23,631 nucleotides of DNA from a virus: the IMG/VR virus record IMGVR_UViG_3300046001_003526, positions 1 to 23,631 of that record. One strand, given 5' to 3'. Below are positions 56-13,469 of this stretch, piece after piece. Numbering within the stretch: position 1 is the stretch's first letter; every line of letters begins with the position of its first letter. The position numbers and the translations under genes are program-made. The notes beneath the pieces are model-generated. The model saw nothing but the letters and a program-made list of their open reading frames with translations, had not been told where the DNA came from and searched no databases.

Positions 56-405
56 GTCGTTGCCTCTTTCTTGATTCTCCAAACGATCATCATCGAGCCT
101 CTCGACGACATCCGCCGAATGCCGCTGTCCTCGATGAATCCGGCCTGTGTGAGTTCCGTTCGGCGTTTGCCGATCGAGTTCATGTATTGCTTGGTTACGC
201 TCGCGAGTTCCTCATCCGTGAGGCCGTCTGGATTGTTTCGCAATGCTTCGAGCGCGAGAGCGCGTCCGCTTCCTGCTCGCGGCGCGGCTCGCTTCGCGGC
301 CTCGATCGATGTCTCTCGATCGTTGGTTCGATGCATACCGAGAGAGAAGAGAGAGCCGATCGGAGGAGGAGCGTCTCCGGCTCGCATCATCGGATCGTGC
401 TTCAT
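52..405 (-). CDS. Small winged-helix-like protein (117 aa)
   Basis: The last 65 or so residues look like a winged-helix DNA-binding domain. There is a helix around LALEALRNNPDGLTDEELA, a putative recognition helix around SIGKRRTELTQAGFI, and a wing containing DSGIRR and ending MMIVWRIKK. This arrangement is common in small phage proteins and resembles MarR/ArsR-type folds. The first 45 residues are polar and probably unstructured. The ATG at 405 overlaps the upstream stop by 4 bases and has a GGAGGAG Shine-Dalgarno just upstream. A role in transcription control or in organising phage DNA is inference, because no close family was recognised. Confidence 0.7.
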   Translation of the reverse strand: MKHDPMMRAGDAPPPIGSLFSLGMHRTNDRETSIEAAKRAAPRAGSGRALALEALRNNPDGLTDEELASVTKQYMNSIGKRRTELTQAGFIEDSGIRRMSSRGSMMIVWRIKKEATT

Positions 406-605
406 CGCTCCTCCTCTCTGCGCTCGATGCGAATCGTGCGATCGAAGCAGAGCGCGACTGTGATCTTCGCGTCCTTGGGAACGCGCTTCATTTCGAGGAA
501 TCCGAGATCGTCTCCGTTCTCGGCGATGAGCCAGATCCGATCGCCTTCGTAGGCCTGCCGGATGACGCGGCCAAAGTGCGACGGTTTGTCGATCGGTTGT
601 TTCAT
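402..605 (-). CDS. 67-aa protein, possible CsrA-like RNA-binding regulator
   Basis: The protein is nearly all predicted beta strand. Residues 11-27 (FGRVIRQAYEGDRIWLI) could match CsrA strand 1 with its R..GE turn. Residues 33-42 could match strand 2. Residues 47-64 (KITVALCFDRTIRIERRE) align without gaps to the CsrA segment ending VHREE, keeping the alternating I/V positions and the final R and E. CsrA proteins are usually 60-70 residues long, which fits. The classical LTR..GE start is not conserved, so the match is weak and rests on pattern only. The start at 605 overlaps the upstream stop and has an AGGAGAGGAGG ribosome site. Hairpins with ANGGA loops in nearby leaders strengthen the idea. 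It could also be an unrelated small beta-barrel. Confidence 0.55.
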   Translation of the reverse strand: MKQPIDKPSHFGRVIRQAYEGDRIWLIAENGDDLGFLEMKRVPKDAKITVALCFDRTIRIERREEER

Positions 606-823
606 GTGGTGGCCTCCTCTCCTTGGGAGGGAGCATTGCTGCTCCCTCCCATCCGAGGAGACGGCGCGTCCTGCGCTTTCGGACTGGCGATGATAGCAGC
701 GCGGTCGAGCATTCCGCGAATCCATTGCATCGCGACGAGATCTTCCTCGGTCGTTGCAATCGAGCGCGAGAGGAGAGATTCGAGGCCTTGTCGCGCTCGC
801 TTCGAGAGATAGGGCCGATTCAT
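602..823 (-). CDS. Hypothetical 73-aa protein
   Basis: The ATG at 823 overlaps the stop of the Gp157-like gene (ATGA). The first 45 residues (SKRARQGLESLLSRSI, then DLVAMQWIRGMLDRAA) should form two amphipathic helices. The last 25 are polar, rich in Pro, Ser and Gly, and are encoded by a 12-bp hairpin (624-651), so part of the tail may be shaped by RNA structure rather than by protein function. No family was recognised. The continuous overlaps on both sides support it as a real gene. Confidence 0.65.
   Translation of the reverse strand: MNRPYLSKRARQGLESLLSRSIATTEEDLVAMQWIRGMLDRAAIIASPKAQDAPSPRMGGSSNAPSQGEEATT
624..651 (-). promoter_or_regulatory. 12-bp RNA hairpin with GCAA tetraloop
   Basis: A perfect 12-bp inverted repeat, TGGGAGGGAGCA on the minus strand, closes a GCAA loop, which is a stable GNRA type. 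It lies in the last codons of the 73-aa gene and only about 7 nt before the AGGAGAGGAGG ribosome site of the 67-aa gene. It could tune translation of that gene or mark an RNA processing point. No run of T follows, so a Rho-independent terminator is unlikely. Confidence 0.7.
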
Positions 824-1344
824 TTGATCGAGATCCTCGTTCCTCGTTCCATGAGATTCGCGAACGGCAGACTTTCGCCTGCTTCGAGCCGAGCGCGAAT
901 CGCGTCTTTGTTTGCTGTCACGACCGTCTTTCGCTCGATGGCCCACTCGGGGAGTTCCTCTGGCCCGACGCGGAGATCGAGCGGAGCCTTGCCACCGTTT
1001 CGCGTGAGTGCGACGCGGAAGCGCGACGTTTCGATCTTCGGGAGATTCCTCGTCTCCCAAACGAATCGCAGACGCTCGCGCAAGCCTTGTGCCGACTTGT
1101 CGTCGGCCTTCGCGAGATCCGCGAGACGGTCGGCCTCCGCCTGCCGCGATTTCGCTCGCGATTCGAGTTCCGCGATGAGCGAGCAGTAGTTGTCTACCTT
1201 TCCGAAGAGATCCAATTCGAGTTCGCGTTCCCATTCTGCGAGCGCGGCCTCTGCCTGCGGATCGGAGAGATCTCCGCCATTCTCATGGAGGATCGTTTCG
1301 AGCGCGGCAAGATCCGCGCTGATGTCATAGATGGTTCGATTCAT
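820..1344 (-). CDS. Siphovirus Gp157-like protein (174 aa)
   Basis: The sequence has the layout of the Siphovirus Gp157 family: a short start (IYDISADLAALETIL), a long charged coiled-coil middle (residues about 50-100, KVDNYCSLIAELESRAKSR and onward), then a beta-rich end with PKIETSRFRVALTRN and a final ANKDAIRARLEAGE segment. Family members are about 150-180 residues long and often sit near single-strand annealing or recombination genes, as here. One member was linked to phage resistance in Streptococcus thermophilus, but its molecular role is not settled. The start at 1344 overlaps the lysozyme stop, with ATGGAGACACA as ribosome site inside the end of that gene. Confidence 0.8.
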   Translation of the reverse strand: MNRTIYDISADLAALETILHENGGDLSDPQAEAALAEWERELELDLFGKVDNYCSLIAELESRAKSRQAEADRLADLAKADDKSAQGLRERLRFVWETRNLPKIETSRFRVALTRNGGKAPLDLRVGPEELPEWAIERKTVVTANKDAIRARLEAGESLPFANLMERGTRISIK

Positions 1345-1739
1345 TGTGTCTCCATTGCTGCTCGCGCCTTGCGAGCGTATTCAAGCGTACTGTCTTTCTT
1401 GTGACCGCGAGGCCCACCGTTGTGGATTCGCGCGACGGTGTCAATCTTCCAGTCTGGTGCATACCGAGTCAGATACGCGATGACGACACGCTCGGCGATC
1501 TCGCGATTCGTCACGCTTTCGTATCCGAGAGCGCGGAGCGCAGGATCTTTCTCCGTCGCGTCGAGCCAATACGAGAAATGGATCTGATACGCGCCAAGAG
1601 CCTTGCCTTTGTCGCCGATCGCGCGATCTGGATCGGCCTCGCCGCCAGTCTCGACGGTACGAATCGCGTCGAGGATCGCTCGCGTGTCCGTGCCTTTCGG
1701 CGGCGCGATCAGGAACAGAGAGAGGAGGATCGAGGTCAC
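1341..1739 (-). CDS. i-type (destabilase-like) lysozyme, probable endolysin (132 aa)
   Basis: The protein probably cleaves the peptidoglycan glycan strand. Residues 1-12 (MTSILLSLFLIA) form a short hydrophobic segment that could be a signal peptide or signal-arrest anchor, giving export without a holin. Glu30 (VETGG) is in place for the catalytic acid. The later part, YQIHFSYWLDA (51-61), then AYLTRY and ARIHNGGP (103-110), matches the signature of the invertebrate-type lysozyme/destabilase family. The many disulfide cysteines of animal members are absent, which is usual for bacterial and phage relatives. A transglycosylase of the SLT superfamily is the alternative. Its ATG overlaps the upstream stop. 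It lies among small early-type genes and not beside the tail genes. Confidence 0.75.
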   Translation of the reverse strand: MTSILLSLFLIAPPKGTDTRAILDAIRTVETGGEADPDRAIGDKGKALGAYQIHFSYWLDATEKDPALRALGYESVTNREIAERVVIAYLTRYAPDWKIDTVARIHNGGPRGHKKDSTLEYARKARAAMETQ

Positions 1740-1990
1740 CGCGAGCCTCCGATCGTGAGCGATTCGCGCTTGATCTGCTCGAGACGCTTGGTTCGCGAGT
1801 AGTGCGCCGGAATCTCGATCGAGCCAGTCTGCTCAAGTTCCTGAATCCAAGAACCAGAGCAGGCTCGATCGAGCATCGGATACTCGCCGTGAATGCAGCG
1901 GAACGGCTCGCGGATGAGTTCGTTGATCGCGGAGATCGCGAGATCGAGTTCGAGGTCGGTCAGTTCCTTGATGTCGGTTTCTTCTTGCAT
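1736..1990 (-). CDS. Hypothetical 84-aa protein
   Basis: The start is set by AAGGAGACAACC directly before ATG at 1990. The N-terminal half is acidic and helical (TDIKELTDLELDLAISAINELI). The second half holds two cysteines and a basic end (RTKRLEQIKRES). No family was recognised. The leader upstream carries an ACGGA-loop hairpin and a tetraloop hairpin, so expression is probably controlled at the RNA level. The stop overlaps the lysozyme start, so the two are probably translationally coupled. Confidence 0.7.
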   Translation of the reverse strand: MQEETDIKELTDLELDLAISAINELIREPFRCIHGEYPMLDRACSGSWIQELEQTGSIEIPAHYSRTKRLEQIKRESLTIGGSR

Positions 1991-2009
1991 GGTTGTCTCC
2001 TTGTCTGCT

Positions 2010-2026
2010 CCTCGCTCCGTGCGAGG
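2010..2026 (-). promoter_or_regulatory. Leader hairpin with ACGGA loop, copy 1
   Basis: On the transcribed strand CCTCGC-ACGGA-GCGAGG forms a 6-bp stem with a five-base loop. Its GGA lies 18 nt before the GGA of the Shine-Dalgarno sequence AAGGAGACA of the 84-aa gene. ANGGA in a loop plus a second GGA at the ribosome site is the known architecture of CsrA/RsmA-repressed leaders. That a CsrA-like protein binds here is inference. Confidence 0.65.
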
Positions 2027-2048
2027 CTCCGGCCTACGGCGCGGATTC

Positions 2049-2072
2049 GAGAGGCCTCTCGCGAGGCCTCTC
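2049..2072 (-). promoter_or_regulatory. 10-bp hairpin with GCGA tetraloop
   Basis: GAGAGGCCTC and its exact complement flank a GCGA loop (GNRA class) on the transcribed strand. It sits between the stop of the 107-aa gene and the leader of the 84-aa gene. No T tract follows, so it is more likely an RNA-stabilising or processing element than an intrinsic terminator. Confidence 0.7.
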
Positions 2073-2093
2073 CGATCCGAGTCGTTCAGCGAA

Positions 2094-2417
2094 TCATTCT
2101 GGAAGGATTCCCTTAATCGGATTCGATCCGAATGCTGCGGCGATCTCGCGAGCGATGTCTCTTTCGAGCATTCGCATCGATGTCGAGACGCGAAGTTCTG
2201 GATTGATGATTCGCGATTGAATTCCCCAGCGATCCTCTCCATGATGGACCGCGATCAACTCGAAGGTCGAATCGCTAGGAGATATGAGGAAGACGCTAAT
2301 CATGTTCCGATTTGCGTCGATCGTCATTTTGCATCCGAGTGCATTGACACGATCTGCGAAATAGGTCGTCGCGAGTGATCGGCGAATGTCTGCGAGAATT
2401 TGATTGAATGTTGTCAT
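2094..2417 (-). CDS. Hypothetical 107-aa protein
   Basis: The start at 2417 is chosen because AAAGGAGACACGCAA precedes this ATG; an in-frame ATG 48 bases upstream lies in the structured leader and has no good ribosome site. The protein has a helical N-terminus, a central beta-rich part (KMTIDANRNMISVFLI, then FELIAVHHGEDRWGI), and a helical end (MLERDIAREIAAAFG), suggesting a small alpha/beta fold. No family was recognised. Its leader is the second copy of the hairpin cassette. Confidence 0.7.
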   Translation of the reverse strand: MTTFNQILADIRRSLATTYFADRVNALGCKMTIDANRNMISVFLISPSDSTFELIAVHHGEDRWGIQSRIINPELRVSTSMRMLERDIAREIAAAFGSNPIKGILPE

Positions 2418-2436
2418 TTGCGTGTCTCCTTTGTTC

Positions 2437-2455
2437 CTCGCGATCCGTTCGCGAG
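2437..2455 (-). promoter_or_regulatory. Leader hairpin with ACGGA loop, copy 2
   Basis: CTCGCGA-ACGGA-TCGCGAG makes a 7-bp stem with the same pentaloop as copy 1 but a different stem sequence. The loop GGA is 17 nt before the GGA of the AAAGGAGACA ribosome site for the 107-aa gene. This is a candidate translational operator. Confidence 0.65.
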
Positions 2456-2476
2456 TCTGGCTCACGGCGCAGATTC

Positions 2477-2500
2477 GAGGAGCCTCCGAAGAGGCTCCTC
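2477..2500 (-). promoter_or_regulatory. 10-bp hairpin with C(UUCG)G tetraloop
   Basis: GAGGAGCCTC and its exact complement close a TTCG loop with a C-G closing pair on the transcribed strand, the classic hyper-stable UUCG tetraloop. It lies directly after the stop of the 68-aa gene. The absence of a T run argues against simple termination. Confidence 0.75.
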
Positions 2501-2513
2501 CGATCCGAGTCGT

Positions 2514-2720
2514 TCACTTGCTTTGAGCGCGAAGGAGTTCTCGATACGCTCTAACTGCGGGAGCGGTTGATCGGACTGGAATTCCAGAGCGGATCGACTG
2601 GATGATCGGAGACTCTCCATTCGCGGATACTTTCCATGCTTCTCGGCAAGCATCGACTCCCCACTTCTCGAGAGTCTCGCGATCGCGACGCTTCAGGGAT
2701 TCGATATTTTTGATGCTCAT
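2514..2720 (-). CDS. Hypothetical 68-aa protein
   Basis: The ATG at 2720 follows AAAGGAGACAGCC and is the first good start in the frame; the frame is open 87 bases further up, but that stretch is the leader with hairpin and promoter-like boxes. The protein is basic and helical (SLKRRDRETLEKWGVDACREAW, then VRAYRELLRAQSK). No family was recognised. Being first after a predicted promoter, it probably heads the small-gene operon. Confidence 0.65.
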   Translation of the reverse strand: MSIKNIESLKRRDRETLEKWGVDACREAWKVSANGESPIIQSIRSGIPVRSTAPAVRAYRELLRAQSK

Positions 2721-2737
2721 GGCTGTCTCCTTTGTTT

Positions 2738-2756
2738 TCGAGGCTCCGTGCCTCGA
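2738..2756 (-). promoter_or_regulatory. Leader hairpin with ACGGA loop, copy 3
   Basis: TCGAGGC-ACGGA-GCCTCGA makes a 7-bp stem with the ACGGA loop. The loop GGA is 17 nt before the GGA of the ribosome site of the 68-aa gene. If the promoter-like boxes just upstream are real, the transcript would begin at or next to this stem. Confidence 0.65.
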
Positions 2757-2763
2757 TGCGATG

Positions 2764-2791
2764 AGTATGCAGAGATTTCGGCTCAAGGCAA
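2764..2791 (-). promoter_or_regulatory. Possible sigma70-like promoter for the small-gene operon
   Basis: Reading leftward, TTGCCT (2791-2786) and CATACT (2769-2764) are separated by 16 bases. The first matches four of six consensus bases and the second four of six. The stretch is richer in A+T than its surroundings. The expected start point is near 2757, right at the ACGGA hairpin. The evidence is moderate to weak. Confidence 0.35.
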
Positions 2792-2798
2792 GGAATCG

Positions 2799-2825
2799 CT
2801 TGAGCATTTCCGAAATTTCCTCAAG
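2799..2825. promoter_or_regulatory. Inverted repeat upstream of the promoter, possible operator
   Basis: CTTGAG and CTCAAG flank an A+T-rich core, CATTTCCGAAATTTC, which itself contains a short inverted sequence. It lies just upstream of the proposed -35 box. It could bind a repressor or activator. Nothing in the sequence identifies the protein. Confidence 0.35.
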
Positions 2826-2868
2826 ATTCTAGGTTATCGGGACTCTGTATATCCAAAGCGCGGGAAAC

Positions 2869-2919
2869 GGCCCGTACGGGCCTCGGAGCGCGGCAGGCCT
2901 CGGAAGGCCTCCAGACGGG
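2869..2919 (-). terminator. Structured segment after the 205-aa gene, weak terminator candidate
   Basis: It lies immediately after the stop at 2928. It holds the palindrome GGCCCGTACGGGCC (2869-2882), an AGGCCT-TCCG-AGGCCT hairpin (2895-2910) and a GGCCCGT block (2913-2919) that can pair with the palindrome. Only a short T run (GTTT) follows, so it may be a terminator or another RNA element. Confidence 0.35.
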
Positions 2920-2927
2920 CCAAGCGG

Positions 2928-3545
2928 CTAGGAGAGCCGTCCTGCGGCCTTTCCTGCCTCACGGTAGAAAGTCGCCGCCGAGACTGGCCGGAGCGGATTC
3001 CGGCCTTCGTCCTCGAATCCCTGCCGATCTCGATCGTATCCGGCAAGCGTCCTCCGGCAGACGAGATCCGAGACGGCGAGAATCCAAGGTCGGCTCCATG
3101 CGCCGAACGACTCCGGCGGATTACCCCAACCAAGCGAGCGCAGGTAGTCGACCGCTTCGCCGACTTCGAGCGGATTCGCTGTCTCGATCTCGCGCCGGCG
3201 CGAGAGCCAGTCTGCCTCGCAGACTGTCGCATCTCGGCTCGCAGAGATCGAGCGCATCCGCGCTTCGCGCTCGCGAGCCTCGCGCTGCGTCAGTTCGAGA
3301 CGGCGCACTTTCACATCGGCGAGGAACTCGAAATATTTCGCAGGGAGGAAACGCGCTCGCGGCCCCCCCCATTGAATCGAATAGTTCTCAAGTGCCGCCA
3401 TCGCGACTTCGGCGGATTCCTCTGCGATGCGCGGAAGCGCGAGTGACCAGAGTTCGCGATCGGTTTCGCCTTTGAAGTAGCGATTCGCTCGCGCAGTAAA
3501 TCCGGCGAGTTCCTCGCGCGTCATGCCTTGCTTCTTTTGTTCCAT
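2928..3545 (-). CDS. Hypothetical 205-aa protein, possibly replication-related
   Basis: No family was recognised with confidence. The N-terminal 65 residues (MTREELAGFTARANRYF, then LWSLALPRIAEESAEVAMAAL, then RFLPAKYFEFLADV) resemble the helical segment of phage helicase-loader or replisome-organiser proteins, which alternate an all-helical domain with a statement of target site such as FLPA. Residues 75-105 are very charged (REAREREARMR) and may be coiled. The rest contains GWGNPPESFGAWSRPW. It follows the annealing-protein operon and a terminator, and its own leader has a hairpin with AGGA in the loop. A DNA replication role is inference from place and weak resemblance. Confidence 0.6.
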   Translation of the reverse strand: MEQKKQGMTREELAGFTARANRYFKGETDRELWSLALPRIAEESAEVAMAALENYSIQWGGPRARFLPAKYFEFLADVKVRRLELTQREAREREARMRSISASRDATVCEADWLSRRREIETANPLEVGEAVDYLRSLGWGNPPESFGAWSRPWILAVSDLVCRRTLAGYDRDRQGFEDEGRNPLRPVSAATFYREAGKAAGRLS

Positions 3546-3558
3546 TGCGTCTCTCTTT

Positions 3559-3576
3559 CTCTGGCTCCTGCCAGAG
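3559..3576 (-). promoter_or_regulatory. Leader hairpin with AGGA loop
   Basis: CTCTGGC-AGGA-GCCAGAG forms a 7-bp stem with a GGA-bearing four-base loop, 13 nt before the start codon of the 205-aa gene. It is a looser relative of the ACGGA hairpins. The nearby ribosome site GAGAGAC is weak, so this gene may be poorly translated unless helped. Confidence 0.5.
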
Positions 3577-3592
3577 TTTCGCGGCCTATCTC

Positions 3593-3628
3593 GTGAACTA
3601 CGTCCGACGTACTCCGCTTCCGGTTCAC
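3593..3628. promoter_or_regulatory. Nested inverted repeats, possible operator or RNA stem
   Basis: GTGAAC and GTTCAC (3593-3598, 3623-3628) form the outer arms. Inside lies the near-palindrome TACGTC-C-GACGTA (3599-3611). It sits in the untranslated gap ahead of the 205-aa gene. It could be a DNA-binding site or a stem in the leader RNA. Confidence 0.35.
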
Positions 3629-3703
3629 AGAAGAGAAGAGAGAAGGAGTTAGATTCAGGGAGTCGAACCGAAACACCGAGCGCGTATTTGTGTCGCTTTG
3701 CTC

Positions 3704-3730
3704 GGGTGGGGGGTTATTAGGGGGGAGGGG
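3704..3730 (+). other. G-quadruplex motif in the 274-base gap
   Basis: On the plus strand, GGGT, then six G, TTATTA, six G, A and four G fit the G3+N1-7 rule for a four-tier quadruplex; another GGGG follows at about 3745. The plus strand is the template strand for leftward transcription here. Next to it (3731-3781) the DNA is unusually A+T-rich. The gap 3546-3776 holds no convincing gene. Confidence 0.55.
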
Positions 3731-3776
3731 TTTCGATTTGTAAAGGGGTGAAACTTGGAAATTTCGAAAGATTGTG

Positions 3777-3808
3777 AAAAAGCCTGCCGCGAACTTCGCA
3801 CGGCAGGC
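3777..3808 (-). terminator. Rho-independent terminator of the annealing-protein operon
   Basis: On the minus strand GCCTGCCG, an 11-base loop and CGGCAGGC form an 8-bp GC-rich stem, followed directly by TTTTT. It lies 11 bases after the stop of the 119-aa gene. This is the cleanest intrinsic terminator in the window and separates the annealing operon from the genes further left. Confidence 0.85.
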
Positions 3809-3819
3809 CAGAGGTAGAA

Positions 3820-4179
3820 TCAAAGTCGAGATCCGCGATTCGCGAAGACAAGCCGACTCGCTCGATGGACGAGATCGAATCGGACGCGCTGATCGCACAA
3901 TTCCCAAGCAAGTTCTCGCCTGCGGATCGTCCGGACGCTCACGCGCAAAGCCTCGGCGAGAATCTCCTTCTTCGGCGTGAGATGAGCAGGCATCAGATCA
4001 AGCGGAATCCCGACCTCGATCACGTCGCGGATGTCCTCCTCGATCGAGGTATCCGCCTTGATGATTCGCGCGACATCCAGAGCCTCCGAGACCGAGATCG
4101 GACGGAAGATCCTCGGATCCTCCGCCGCGATCCCGATCTGCGATCGAAGGCTTGCCGAGCCGACGATCTCCCCACTCAT
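3820..4179 (-). CDS. 119-aa protein with a possible helix-turn-helix
   Basis: The ATG at 4179 overlaps the annealing-protein stop (ATGA); longer in-frame starts would run backwards through that gene. Residues about 28-45 and 48-62 are predicted helices. The segment KKEILAEALRVSVRTIRRRE reads like a helix-turn-helix in which SVRTIRR would be the recognition helix. The end is basic. It is the last gene before a strong terminator. A role in DNA binding, perhaps replication or control of the operon, is inference. Confidence 0.65.
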   Translation of the reverse strand: MSGEIVGSASLRSQIGIAAEDPRIFRPISVSEALDVARIIKADTSIEEDIRDVIEVGIPLDLMPAHLTPKKEILAEALRVSVRTIRRRELAWELCDQRVRFDLVHRASRLVFANRGSRL

Positions 4180-5054
4180 GGCGCGTCTCCGATGATCTCG
4201 ACGACCTCGAATCCTCCGTTGGCTCGCGCCTTGACTCGGACACGAGTGTTGACGGAGAACGCCTGATTCGCCTCCAGTCCCGAGGCGATTTCCTCGGAGA
4301 GAACGGCGATTGGGAGAGGCTGATCTTCTTGATCGATCCGCCAGACGCGGCGGCCATTGCGGCCTTCGACTACGCCAATCGGGCTTCGAGCAAGGATAGT
4401 GATGCAATCCTCGGCGACGACCTCGGGAACTCGATCCGCGATCGGATTCGGATTCGTGAGTTCGTCGAGATCCTTCCGGCGTTCCTCGCGTGTTGGCTTC
4501 GATGTCTTCTTTGGCTCGGCGTGGAACTGCTCGACTAGAACGGCCTGCGCTCCTGCGATCGACTCGACCTCGGTTTCATCGAGGACGGCCAAACCGCAGA
4601 TCGAAAGCGTGGCACGTCGCTTCGCCTTCGTCTCGGCCTTCATGTGAGCATTGCTCAAGTTCTCGCCTTTCAATCCGGCGAGGCTGACCGAGCCAGTCGA
4701 GATATCTTCGCGGCCTGTCCGCTCGGTCACGGCGACCGTGACGGTCAGGATGTCGCCGATGATCTCGCGCTCCATGCGCACGACCGAAACGCCATGAATC
4801 GAGCGCAACTGCTCAGTGCAACTCTTGGTTGCATAGAGCACGGTCTTCCCGCTCAGGGTCAGATACTGAAACGGTTGCGTCAGGGGATTTAACCCCATCG
4901 AATCGCAGACTGCGCGATACAAAGCGATCCGTTGCTCCGGCCCGAGTTTGCCGATGTCGCCTGCGGCGATGTACGCCTCCAAGGCCTTTGTTCCGGCAAT
5001 GGCGAGTTGAGAACTGGCCGACTTCGCGGCCTCCGATACGATCATTGCTGTCAT
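4176..5054 (-). CDS. RecT/Bet-like single-strand annealing protein (292 aa)
   Basis: The N-terminal half carries the pattern seen in a widespread phage family placed near RecT/Bet annealing proteins: LYRAVCDSMGLNPLTQPFQY (about 45-64), then LSGKTVLYATKSCTEQLR, and later NAHMKAETKAKRRATLSICG (about 148-167). Such proteins are thought to pair complementary single strands during phage recombination or replication. The C-terminal 100 residues are variable; residues 190-215 are charged and look like a linker. The start at 5054 follows TGGAGACACAA; an upstream in-frame start would include the promoter. It is the first gene of a leftward operon. The annealing role is family-based, and no partner exonuclease was seen in this window. 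Confidence 0.65.
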   Translation of the reverse strand: MTAMIVSEAAKSASSQLAIAGTKALEAYIAAGDIGKLGPEQRIALYRAVCDSMGLNPLTQPFQYLTLSGKTVLYATKSCTEQLRSIHGVSVVRMEREIIGDILTVTVAVTERTGREDISTGSVSLAGLKGENLSNAHMKAETKAKRRATLSICGLAVLDETEVESIAGAQAVLVEQFHAEPKKTSKPTREERRKDLDELTNPNPIADRVPEVVAEDCITILARSPIGVVEGRNGRRVWRIDQEDQPLPIAVLSEEIASGLEANQAFSVNTRVRVKARANGGFEVVEIIGDAP

Positions 5055-5071
5055 TTGTGTCTCCAGTTTCT

Positions 5072-5098
5072 GCGGACACCGTGTCCGCTTGCGGACAC
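5072..5098 (-). promoter_or_regulatory. Triple inverted element at the early transcription start
   Basis: Three 8-bp units lie head to tail: GTGTCCGC (5098-5091), GCGGACAC (5088-5081) and GTGTCCGC (5079-5072). The middle unit can pair with either neighbour. Pairing with the downstream one gives GCGGAC-ACGGT-GTCCGC, the same layout as the ACGGA leader hairpins, with its GGT or GG 16 nt before the ribosome-site GGA. As DNA the first two units make an operator-like palindrome over the start point. Confidence 0.6.
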
Positions 5099-5126
5099 TA
5101 TATCGGAAGATTCGAGGAGATGTCGA
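5097..5126 (-). promoter_or_regulatory. Leftward sigma70-like promoter of the annealing operon
   Basis: TCGACA (5126-5121) and TATAGT (5102-5097) each match five of six consensus bases and are separated by 18 bases. The predicted start is near 5090, giving a short leader that opens with the GCGGACAC hairpin and leads into the annealing gene. It is the best promoter match seen in the window. Confidence 0.6.
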
Positions 5127-12987: not shown

Positions 12988-13469
12988 GGAGTCCTCGCGA
13001 ATTGCTTCTTGATCGCGATCTCGAAGAATCTCACGGAGATCTTTGATATCTGCGGAAGCGTAGGCTTGATGTAAGGCCGAGGCTTCATTCTTCGAGTTCC
13101 GAATTCGAGCATTGGTGCATATGGAACATTGCTTCCATATCGAAGAACTACCGATCGGCCATCTTCAAAGATATTCGCAAATCCGTCTGGACGATTTCCA
13201 ACTGTCTCGACGCTCCACGAAGCACGAAGGCGATTCGTATTCACCGCAGGAGGTTGTCCCGGAAGCGATGCGCGATGGTAGCCACGCGCTCGGAGATTCC
13301 GACCTTTCGCGCTCCCCTTCGCGACGCGATAGAGGAAACCCATTCCGGGCCGCGAAAGTTGACGGCGAACAAGACGAGAAGAACCGACGAGCGTCGCATT
13401 CATGCCTTCTCGTAAACCGACTCGCATCGTTTCGAGAATCGCGTCGTGGTTGAACTTCGCGCCGCTCAT
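12984..13469 (-). CDS. HK97 gp10-like head-tail/tail component (161 aa)
   Basis: The segment NVPYAPMLEFGTRRMKPRPY followed by IKPTL is the family signature of HK97-gp10-like proteins, found in the neck/tail region. Upstream are a basic helical start (ILETMRVGLREGMNATLVG) and a stretch with YHRASLPGQPPAVNTNRLRA, also common in this family (the ASxPGxPPxxxTGxLR pattern). The usual length is 120-170 residues. It is coupled by 4-base overlaps to both neighbours. Confidence 0.8.
   Translation of the reverse strand: MSGAKFNHDAILETMRVGLREGMNATLVGSSRLVRRQLSRPGMGFLYRVAKGSAKGRNLRARGYHRASLPGQPPAVNTNRLRASWSVETVGNRPDGFANIFEDGRSVVLRYGSNVPYAPMLEFGTRRMKPRPYIKPTLPQISKISVRFFEIAIKKQFARTP

Follow-up and report, generated by a model that had tools for sequence, protein, structure and literature searches.

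The window analysed here is a stretch of 23,631 bases from an uncultured phage (IMG/VR record IMGVR_UViG_3300046001_003526) that carries portal, capsid, and connector genes. A block on its minus strand, at ~400-5100, consists mostly of small genes (Table 1). Five of these genes are preceded by short hairpins in the RNA leader, in which a loop of the type A(N)GGA or a close variant sits on stems of differing sequence. The same block encodes a 67-amino-acid (67-aa) protein with a distant likeness to the RNA-binding regulator CsrA. This computational analysis concerns the hairpins and the possibility that the 67-aa protein reads them.

Table 1. Features of the minus-strand block of the window (nt, nucleotides; SD, Shine-Dalgarno sequence; hyphens separate stem arms from loops; distances between GGA triplets are counted start to start)
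Feature	Position	Strand	Remarks
CsrA-like gene, 67 aa	402-605	-	proposed hairpin reader
Gp157-family gene (PF05565)	820-1344	-	close to the CsrA-like gene, both in the window and in relatives
Sixth hairpin of the same shape, GCTCGC-AAGGC-GCGAGC	1360-1376	-	before the Gp157 start, within the end of the upstream coding sequence
g1736	1736-1990	-	84 aa; no match in family searches
Hairpin CCTCGC-ACGGA-GCGAGG	2010-2026	-	before g1736 (ATG 1990); loop GGA to SD GGA 18 nt
50-nt hairpin element	2036-2085	-	8 nt past the g2094 stop, ahead of the first candidate operator
g2094	2094-2417	-	107 aa; no match in family searches
Hairpin CTCGCGA-ACGGA-TCGCGAG	2437-2455	-	before g2094 (ATG 2417); loop GGA to SD GGA 17 nt
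50-nt element, second copy	2464-2513	-	immediately past the g2517 stop, shortly ahead of a candidate operator leader
g2517	2514-2720	-	68 aa; no match in family searches
Hairpin TCGAGGC-ACGGA-GCCTCGA	2738-2756	-	before g2517 (ATG 2720); loop GGA to SD GGA 17 nt
g2928	2928-3545	-	205 aa; nothing significant in family searches
Hairpin CTCTGGC-AGGA-GCCAGAG	3559-3576	-	before g2928 (ATG 3545)
g4176	4176-5054	-	292 aa; own sequence without family match
Variant hairpin GCGGAC-ACGGT-GTCCGC	5072-5088	-	before g4176 (ATG 5054)

The five hairpins had been described in an earlier note made from the letters of this DNA alone, and all five are present, each before a start codon. Hairpins with an ACGGA loop on a stem of at least 6 base pairs (bp) occur three times, compared to a null mean of 0.03, and none of 200 dinucleotide shuffles reached three. 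When ANGGA and AGGA loops are counted, four hairpins are observed against a null mean of 0.205 and a shuffle maximum of 2. The minimum-energy fold contains the hairpin in four of the five leaders. The exception is the leader of the 292-aa gene, in which 5081-5087 pairs with 5092-5098 instead of forming the 5072-5088 hairpin. In this minimum-energy fold, GUGUC (5075-5079) also pairs with GACAC (5057-5061), at the margin of the ribosome site. This leader (5052-5108, minus strand) holds three copies of one arm (tgtccgc / gcggaca / tgtccgc), so that two mutually exclusive folds are possible. The earlier note had counted it as having the same layout as the others. The hairpin is indeed there, but it is absent from the minimum-energy fold and its loop varies among relatives, which keep the stem and display ACGGT, ACGGC, ATGGT, ACGAA, or, in record G002, ACGGA. 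The sixth hairpin, whose loop is AAGGC, is a possible degenerate member of the set.

A second proposal of the earlier note was a constant distance of 17-18 nt between the GGA of the loop and that of the SD. The distance is as described in the first three leaders (18, 17, and 17 nt), but it is not a general rule. An A(N)GGA loop lies near the ribosome-binding site in four of the five leaders, the fifth having ACGGT, and a second GGA at the SD, within the 10-55 nt given for spacing of CsrA sites (PMC6028588), is found in three. In the leader of the 205-aa gene, the sequence from hairpin to start (AAAGAGAGACGCA) holds no GGA; the one other GGA is part of an ATGGA overlapping the start codon and is gone in G001 and G011. 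In other phages, AGGA leaders continue into AGAAAGCGAGACAGAC-ATG, again with no GGA at the ribosome site.

Relatives were taken from IMG/VR by means of the capsid (best 80 of 316), the 292-aa protein (13 loci), and the Gp157-family gene (13 loci). A near-DNA search of the window against phage records gave zero matches, and the capsid matched phage records at <60% identity only. The orthologous leaders keep the hairpins. The g1736 hairpin is kept in 8 of 9 distinct leaders listed (window included, partial ortholog L106 left out), one of them with an ATGGA loop, and the ninth, L105 (=G002), has GCGGC-AAGAT-GCCGC at the corresponding place. Likewise, the g2094 hairpin is kept in 4 of 4 and the g2517 hairpin in 2 of 2 distinct leaders listed, again with the window included. 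Orthologs of g2928 are preceded by a hairpin of this type in many relatives. Record G001 carries a g2094-type stem with an ATGGA loop before a different start, and unrelated stems sharing one loop are found in G004, G135, G142, and G150. Position 2 of the loop varies among relatives (ACGGA, ATGGA).

The stems change in a compensated manner. In the g2517 hairpin, the C-G closing pair of the window is replaced by A-T in L085/G003, the sole other distinct ortholog leader listed, and the g2928 hairpin shows the same replacement in L098/G001; these two swaps are the best single compensated changes. The claim of the earlier note that a fixed loop on free stems reflects selection on an RNA hairpin at the ribosome-binding sites of several genes is upheld. 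A pair count on 15 selected 15-mers gave 100% pairing by construction, perfect stems having been preselected, and is not used as evidence. Tandem hairpins with GGA loops, 19 nt apart from loop to loop, stand before one start in G008 (30678-30710) and at matching places in G009 and G135 (13168-13200); such an arrangement would suit a dimeric RNA-binding protein.

Is the loop itself enriched near start codons? A set of 171 phage loci (2.0 Mb) contains 100 distinct pentaloop hairpins at most 14 nt from a ribosome site, and 22 of them have an ANGGA loop; 50 are of the form A-N-G-R-N, for which uniform loop bases would give 1 in 32, or ~3 of 100. Genome-wide, ANGGA accounts for 33 of 2852 pentaloops. 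The 171 loci overlap heavily, and the counts were de-duplicated by identical sequence only, so that orthologous leaders one base apart are counted separately and kinship is ignored. Stems were required to be perfectly Watson-Crick, the start-site rule was a simple pattern, and 32 loci (the metagenome-assembled genome (MAG) loci L108-L111, and L146-L173) were left out. De-duplication differed slightly between the whole-genome and the upstream counts (ACGGA 12 vs 13). For group A, to which the window belongs, 15 records were counted: of 39 distinct hairpins carrying a GGA triplet, 23 are situated directly upstream of a start, compared to 73 of 620 for all other triplets. The upstream stems are 5-7 bp long and end 0-8 nt before the ribosome site.

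The loop is specific to the lineage. In a second group (group B), a loop-blind scan of six records found ACGAT in the same architecture in 10 of the 37 hairpins listed, for example GCGGC-ACGAT-GCCGC-AGAAGGAGACAGCC-ATG, and no A(N)GGA operators among them. The ACGAT hairpins listed are from four of the six records (G007, G137, G138, and G139), with none for G143 and G148. Within the first group, G002 and G006 have mainly ANGAA or AAGAT loops. The expectation of the earlier note that phages keeping these genes would also keep the ACGGA loop does not hold in its strict form in group B and in G002/G006, although the hairpin itself persists. A loop that differs by lineage speaks against pairing with one conserved host RNA, and the idea that the loop pairs with 16S rRNA or a single host RNA was dropped on this ground. 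The same difference speaks against host CsrA as the sole reader and suggests that the phage supplies a cognate factor.

The 67-aa protein is conserved in these phages. Every one of the 13 records in the first set (G000-G012) encodes it; several of these had been reached by way of neighbouring genes. Among 29 further records, many of which are short pieces, 7 encode it, G002 being left out of this count. It is also encoded in 19 of 21 records fetched whole, although seven of the 21 (G135, G137, G138, G142, G143, G148, and G150) had been preselected for encoding it; the two without it are pieces of 23 kb and 11 kb. Its ratio of non-synonymous to synonymous changes (pN/pS) is 0.12 over all pairs of eight close copies, which indicates purifying selection.

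The resemblance to CsrA was seen in relatives. A search of 13 phage records with the Pfam CsrA family (PF02599) gave weak matches in two. One of these is a 66-aa protein encoded one short open reading frame (ORF) downstream of the Gp157-family gene, and the other record holds a 95% identical homolog; the window's protein is ~40% identical to the 66-aa protein. Pfam CsrA matched 5 of the 15 members scanned, every one below the 27-bit cut-off. It is the only match for L113 and L112 (E about 0.001), L188 (0.0009), and L136 (0.058, for a part of 71 aa); for L187 it ranks second among four matches (E 0.092). The NCBIfam csrA model also matches L188 at 0.0028, below its cut-off. Alignment of the family with 13 bacterial CsrAs by hhalign gave a P of 0.0034, and none of 150 column shuffles scored as high. 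When all ORFs were searched with a hidden Markov model of 13 bacterial CsrAs, the CsrA-like protein came out on top in G002, G006, G138, and the separate locus L147 only.

An AlphaFold2 (AF2) model built from a 16-row alignment predicts five strands (residues 11-18, 23-28, 33-38, 48-55, and 58-61), with a mean local confidence (pLDDT) of 83.6 and a global template-modelling score (pTM) of 0.60. CsrA has five consecutive strands as well. An earlier model from 8 rows had a pLDDT of 64.2, and a structure search with it listed only chains at Z ≤3.5. Arg62 of the window's protein aligns with Arg44 in the last strand of CsrA, and the residue is present in 14 of 16 rows. The earlier note had suspected a 67-aa protein, by its length presumably this one, as a binder of the leaders; the hhalign result, the five predicted strands, and the Pfam matches of relatives agree with a distant CsrA likeness. 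The protein is called CsrA-like and not filed as a member of the CsrA family because the Pfam scores stay below the cut-off and the structure searches returned no CsrA.

Three of the group B proteins (L136:5052-5318, L187:3156-3416, and L192:1439-1705) have a C-terminal extension with two CxxC motifs that is zinc ribbon-like, and two of the three match a zinc-ribbon family below its cut-off. A further CsrA-like protein of 70 aa is encoded at L147/L205 (contig C442, from a MAG labelled Rhodobacteraceae). It scored 28.7 bits in a genome search, where the cut-off is 27, and 22.3 bits for a 61-aa part in hmmscan. Its gene lies beside a homolog of the Gp157-family gene and one of the 292-aa protein, near an integrase-looking ORF, and L147/L205 is perhaps a second phage type carrying the same gene trio. 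The leader of the CsrA-like gene in the window (606-661, minus strand) forms a stem of 12 bp, capped by a GCAA loop and immediately ahead of the ribosome site, and in several relatives this leader likewise has an unusually long stem of 10-12 bp.

Evidence for a link between hairpins and protein that does not rely on the protein comes from RNA-only scans. A search of 2.9 million viral contigs (IMG/VR) for one exact ACGGA hairpin followed by GGAGAC found seven stretches. One was the known G142, and three were in new records (G164, G166, and G167) that encode a CsrA-like protein. A pattern scan with ACGAT found six stretches, all in records already known through the capsid search; three of the six records encode a CsrA-like protein, and no match was seen in the remaining three, which are 18-23 kb pieces.

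On balance, it appears probable, if only somewhat so, that the phage encodes a CsrA-like translational regulator and that the hairpins serve as its RNA operators. How would such a regulator work? The 67-aa protein would be the ligand of the hairpin, would act as a dimer, and would bind the A(N)GGA loop, which a short stem holds 0-8 nt ahead of the ribosome-binding site. Such binding fits much of the published work on RsmE, for which ANGGAX hexaloops and the AAGGA and AGGGA pentaloops are reported to be high-affinity targets (PMC4005645). Binding would control, and most simply repress, initiation on the genes of the block, namely the possible annealing recombinase (the 292-aa product, see below), the 205-aa gene, and the variable small ORFs. 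Repression is a default guess. In the leader at 5072, a stabilised ACGGT hairpin would free the ribosome site, and activation is conceivable there. Bridging of two GGA sites would be possible for three leaders, but other leaders have no GGA at the ribosome site; in the ACGAT group, the loop and the SD would require different recognition. Loop and protein may have diverged together, giving each lineage a loop of its own: A(N)GGA for the group that includes the window, ACGAT for group B, and mainly ANGAA/AAGAT for G002/G006. A further-reaching version is proposed tentatively and is judged somewhat more doubtful than probable. It holds that the phages possess a self-contained Csr-like system, with a private loop per lineage and its own diverged reader, that is insulated from host CsrA and in which the GGA rule was rewritten more than once.

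Several observations weigh against a CsrA-like operator system. At the level of the protein, the best member scores against PF02599 are 19.6 bits (L188) and 19.5 bits (L113), with a cut-off of 27. Ten of the 15 members scanned have no Pfam CsrA match, and the window's own protein has none in Pfam or NCBIfam and is outside the three best matches when the window's ORFs are searched with the model of 13 bacterial CsrAs. With PF02599 at E up to 1, matches appear in 2 of 12 more records and are lacking in the other 10; among 14 control genomes, 7 give a match at that limit, 3 of them over the cut-off. The hhalign probability is just 9.6% and covers the C-terminal half only. The terminal helix of the AF2 model is three residues long (64-66) and of low confidence, and the equivalent of Arg44 is missing in the G008 and G135 rows and also in G009. 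No CsrA or RsmA chain was listed when the AF2 model, a monomer, was compared with the PDB by Foldseek and VIA-align. CsrA forms an interwoven dimer, so that a monomer model is a poor probe for a structure search. Nothing significant was found in a structure search against BFVD, PDB sequence searches gave nothing convincing (RsmN at E 0.97), and PHROGs returned no CsrA-like family for the phage members scanned.

The RNA and its association with the protein raise objections as well. The three new records from the ACGGA scan are alike in their leaders and count as about one independent case; a 21-kb record has the same leader but no protein match, and two short contigs have the site without the protein and in a different surrounding, where the site looks unrelated. 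At L205, where the CsrA match is better, no such hairpins were found in the 16 kb scanned. The leader hairpin of the CsrA-like gene differs from the operator type. Among the upstream hairpins listed for group A, 43 of 153 have GGA in the loop and 110 do not. Entire lineages have GAT or GAA in place of GGA, a core described as irreplaceable for RsmE (PMC4005645). The two pentaloops named there as high-affinity targets of RsmE, AAGGA and AGGGA, have a purine at N, whereas the ACGGA pentaloop of the window has a pyrimidine (PMC4005645). The CsrA-type operator set proposed in the earlier note is retained in part: the loop is of CsrA type and a CsrA-like protein is at hand, but the paired GGA is not general and GGA is not universal.

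Other explanations can be weighed against these findings. The hairpins might be read by host CsrA/RsmA, which would time these genes, with the 67-aa protein doing something else or interfering with host CsrA. The preference of host CsrA fits A(N)GGA loops ~12-18 nt before an SD GGA (PMC6028588, PMC4005645), and some possible hosts do have CsrA: of 59 genomes sampled across the phylum to which a Phycisphaerales MAG belongs, 24 carry it. However, group B has ACGAT in the same layout, a loop that host CsrA would not be expected to read, and a conserved CsrA-type protein of the phage is already at hand. Furthermore, only 1 of 61 genomes from the family of a Rhodobacteraceae MAG has a CsrA match, and this match adjoins homologs of two phage genes of the window. 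Reading by the host is therefore considered unlikely, and the protein encoded by the phage is the stronger candidate. It is also improbable, although not far-fetched, that a different RNA-binding protein of the phage reads the hairpins while the CsrA-like protein acts elsewhere. The gene g3820 and the 292-aa gene are both widely conserved across the window's phage group, and co-occurrence singles out no one protein; moreover, the 292-aa protein has a sub-threshold match to the C-terminal domain of tRNA ligase (E 0.065). Yet no other protein of the block is above the cut-off for an RNA-binding family, and only the CsrA-like one resembles a type known for such targets.

The hairpins might also need no specific protein and aid translation or mRNA stability by keeping the ribosome site open, as standby sites, or as processing marks. 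Stems of 5-7 bp that end 0-8 nt before the ribosome site could keep it unpaired, and the 50-nt hairpin beside two of the candidate operators resembles a processing signal. A purely structural role leaves unexplained both the fixed loop on free stems and the change of loop from lineage to lineage, and this explanation appears doubtful at best. That base composition or common ancestry of a duplicated leader made the resemblance is scarcely credible. The leaders at 2010 and 2437 do share the flanking 50-nt element, so part of their likeness reflects common descent, but the shuffle test, the differing stems in other genes and phages, and the excess of GGA triplets all speak against it.

The proposed phage regulator resembles known CsrA/RsmA/RsmE control in that A(N)GGA is presented close to the SD by the loop of a short hairpin and that the protein is small and mostly beta, and some pentaloop targets have been reported there (PMC4005645). 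It differs in that the regulator and its targets would both be in the phage, the protein falls below the family cut-offs, sister lineages have ACGAT or ANGAA loops, and the second GGA is not general. Alleles of csrA have been catalogued in 30 of 2517 phage genomes, with no role assigned to them (Sobrero and Valverde 2020, PMC7366521), and the plasmid regulator RsmQ acts on host mRNAs (PMC9928087). These cases share with the window a CsrA-type gene on a mobile element, but they are CsrA proteins by PSI-BLAST or tBLASTn, whereas here the likely targets lie within the phage itself. The nearest described genome arrangement met is that of the start-associated sequences (SAS) and extended SAS (ESAS) of cluster K mycobacteriophages, which are likewise repeated just upstream of the starts of a subset of non-structural genes, about half of them with inverted repeats (PMC3203893). 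The SAS is one fixed 13-bp sequence, GGGATAGGAGCCC, and the ESAS are 17-bp inverted repeats with a consensus, whereas the hairpins have free stems and a fixed loop. The SAS 13-mer is absent from all five leaders of the window.

T4 RegA and the MS2 coat protein are phage proteins that bind RNA at the ribosome-binding region. They are alike in that a phage protein has an RNA site, but the proteins and their RNA motifs are unrelated to those of the window. A phage CsrA-type protein with operators in its own genome was not found among the matches listed in the open-licence literature. Phage csrA genes have been catalogued without known targets (PMC7366521), and here a likely target set is seen in the phage. 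A phage family with a CsrA-like protein and matching RNA sites in its own mRNAs makes the question of targets testable. If the loop code and the protein changed together, the family would be a natural mutational series for the choice of RNA by CsrA-type proteins.

The 50-nt element that adjoins two of the leaders (ACGACTCGG...GCGCCGT) forms a single long stem with small internal loops, and its two copies have z-scores of -4.7 and -4.5. Nine pattern matches were found in 8 of the 22 records or loci scanned. All are 50 nt long, and the stem changes while remaining paired. It is perhaps an RNase III-type processing site. An Rfam scan gave two matches, both far below the gathering scores, and a tRNA scan found none.

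The 292-aa product is possibly a single-strand annealing recombinase, judged by eye. A distant homolog (L203:6950-7639) matches Rad52_Rad22 below the cut-off; neither a CsrA-like protein nor hairpins were found in the stretches of L203 and L204, which carry the distant homolog, that were examined. A host search with a capsid profile returned four MAG contigs from different groups and so singles out no host. In five relatives (G163, G008, G135, G004, and G150), an apparent hydrophobic ORF of ~27 codons was seen by eye between the operator region and the homolog of the 292-aa gene.

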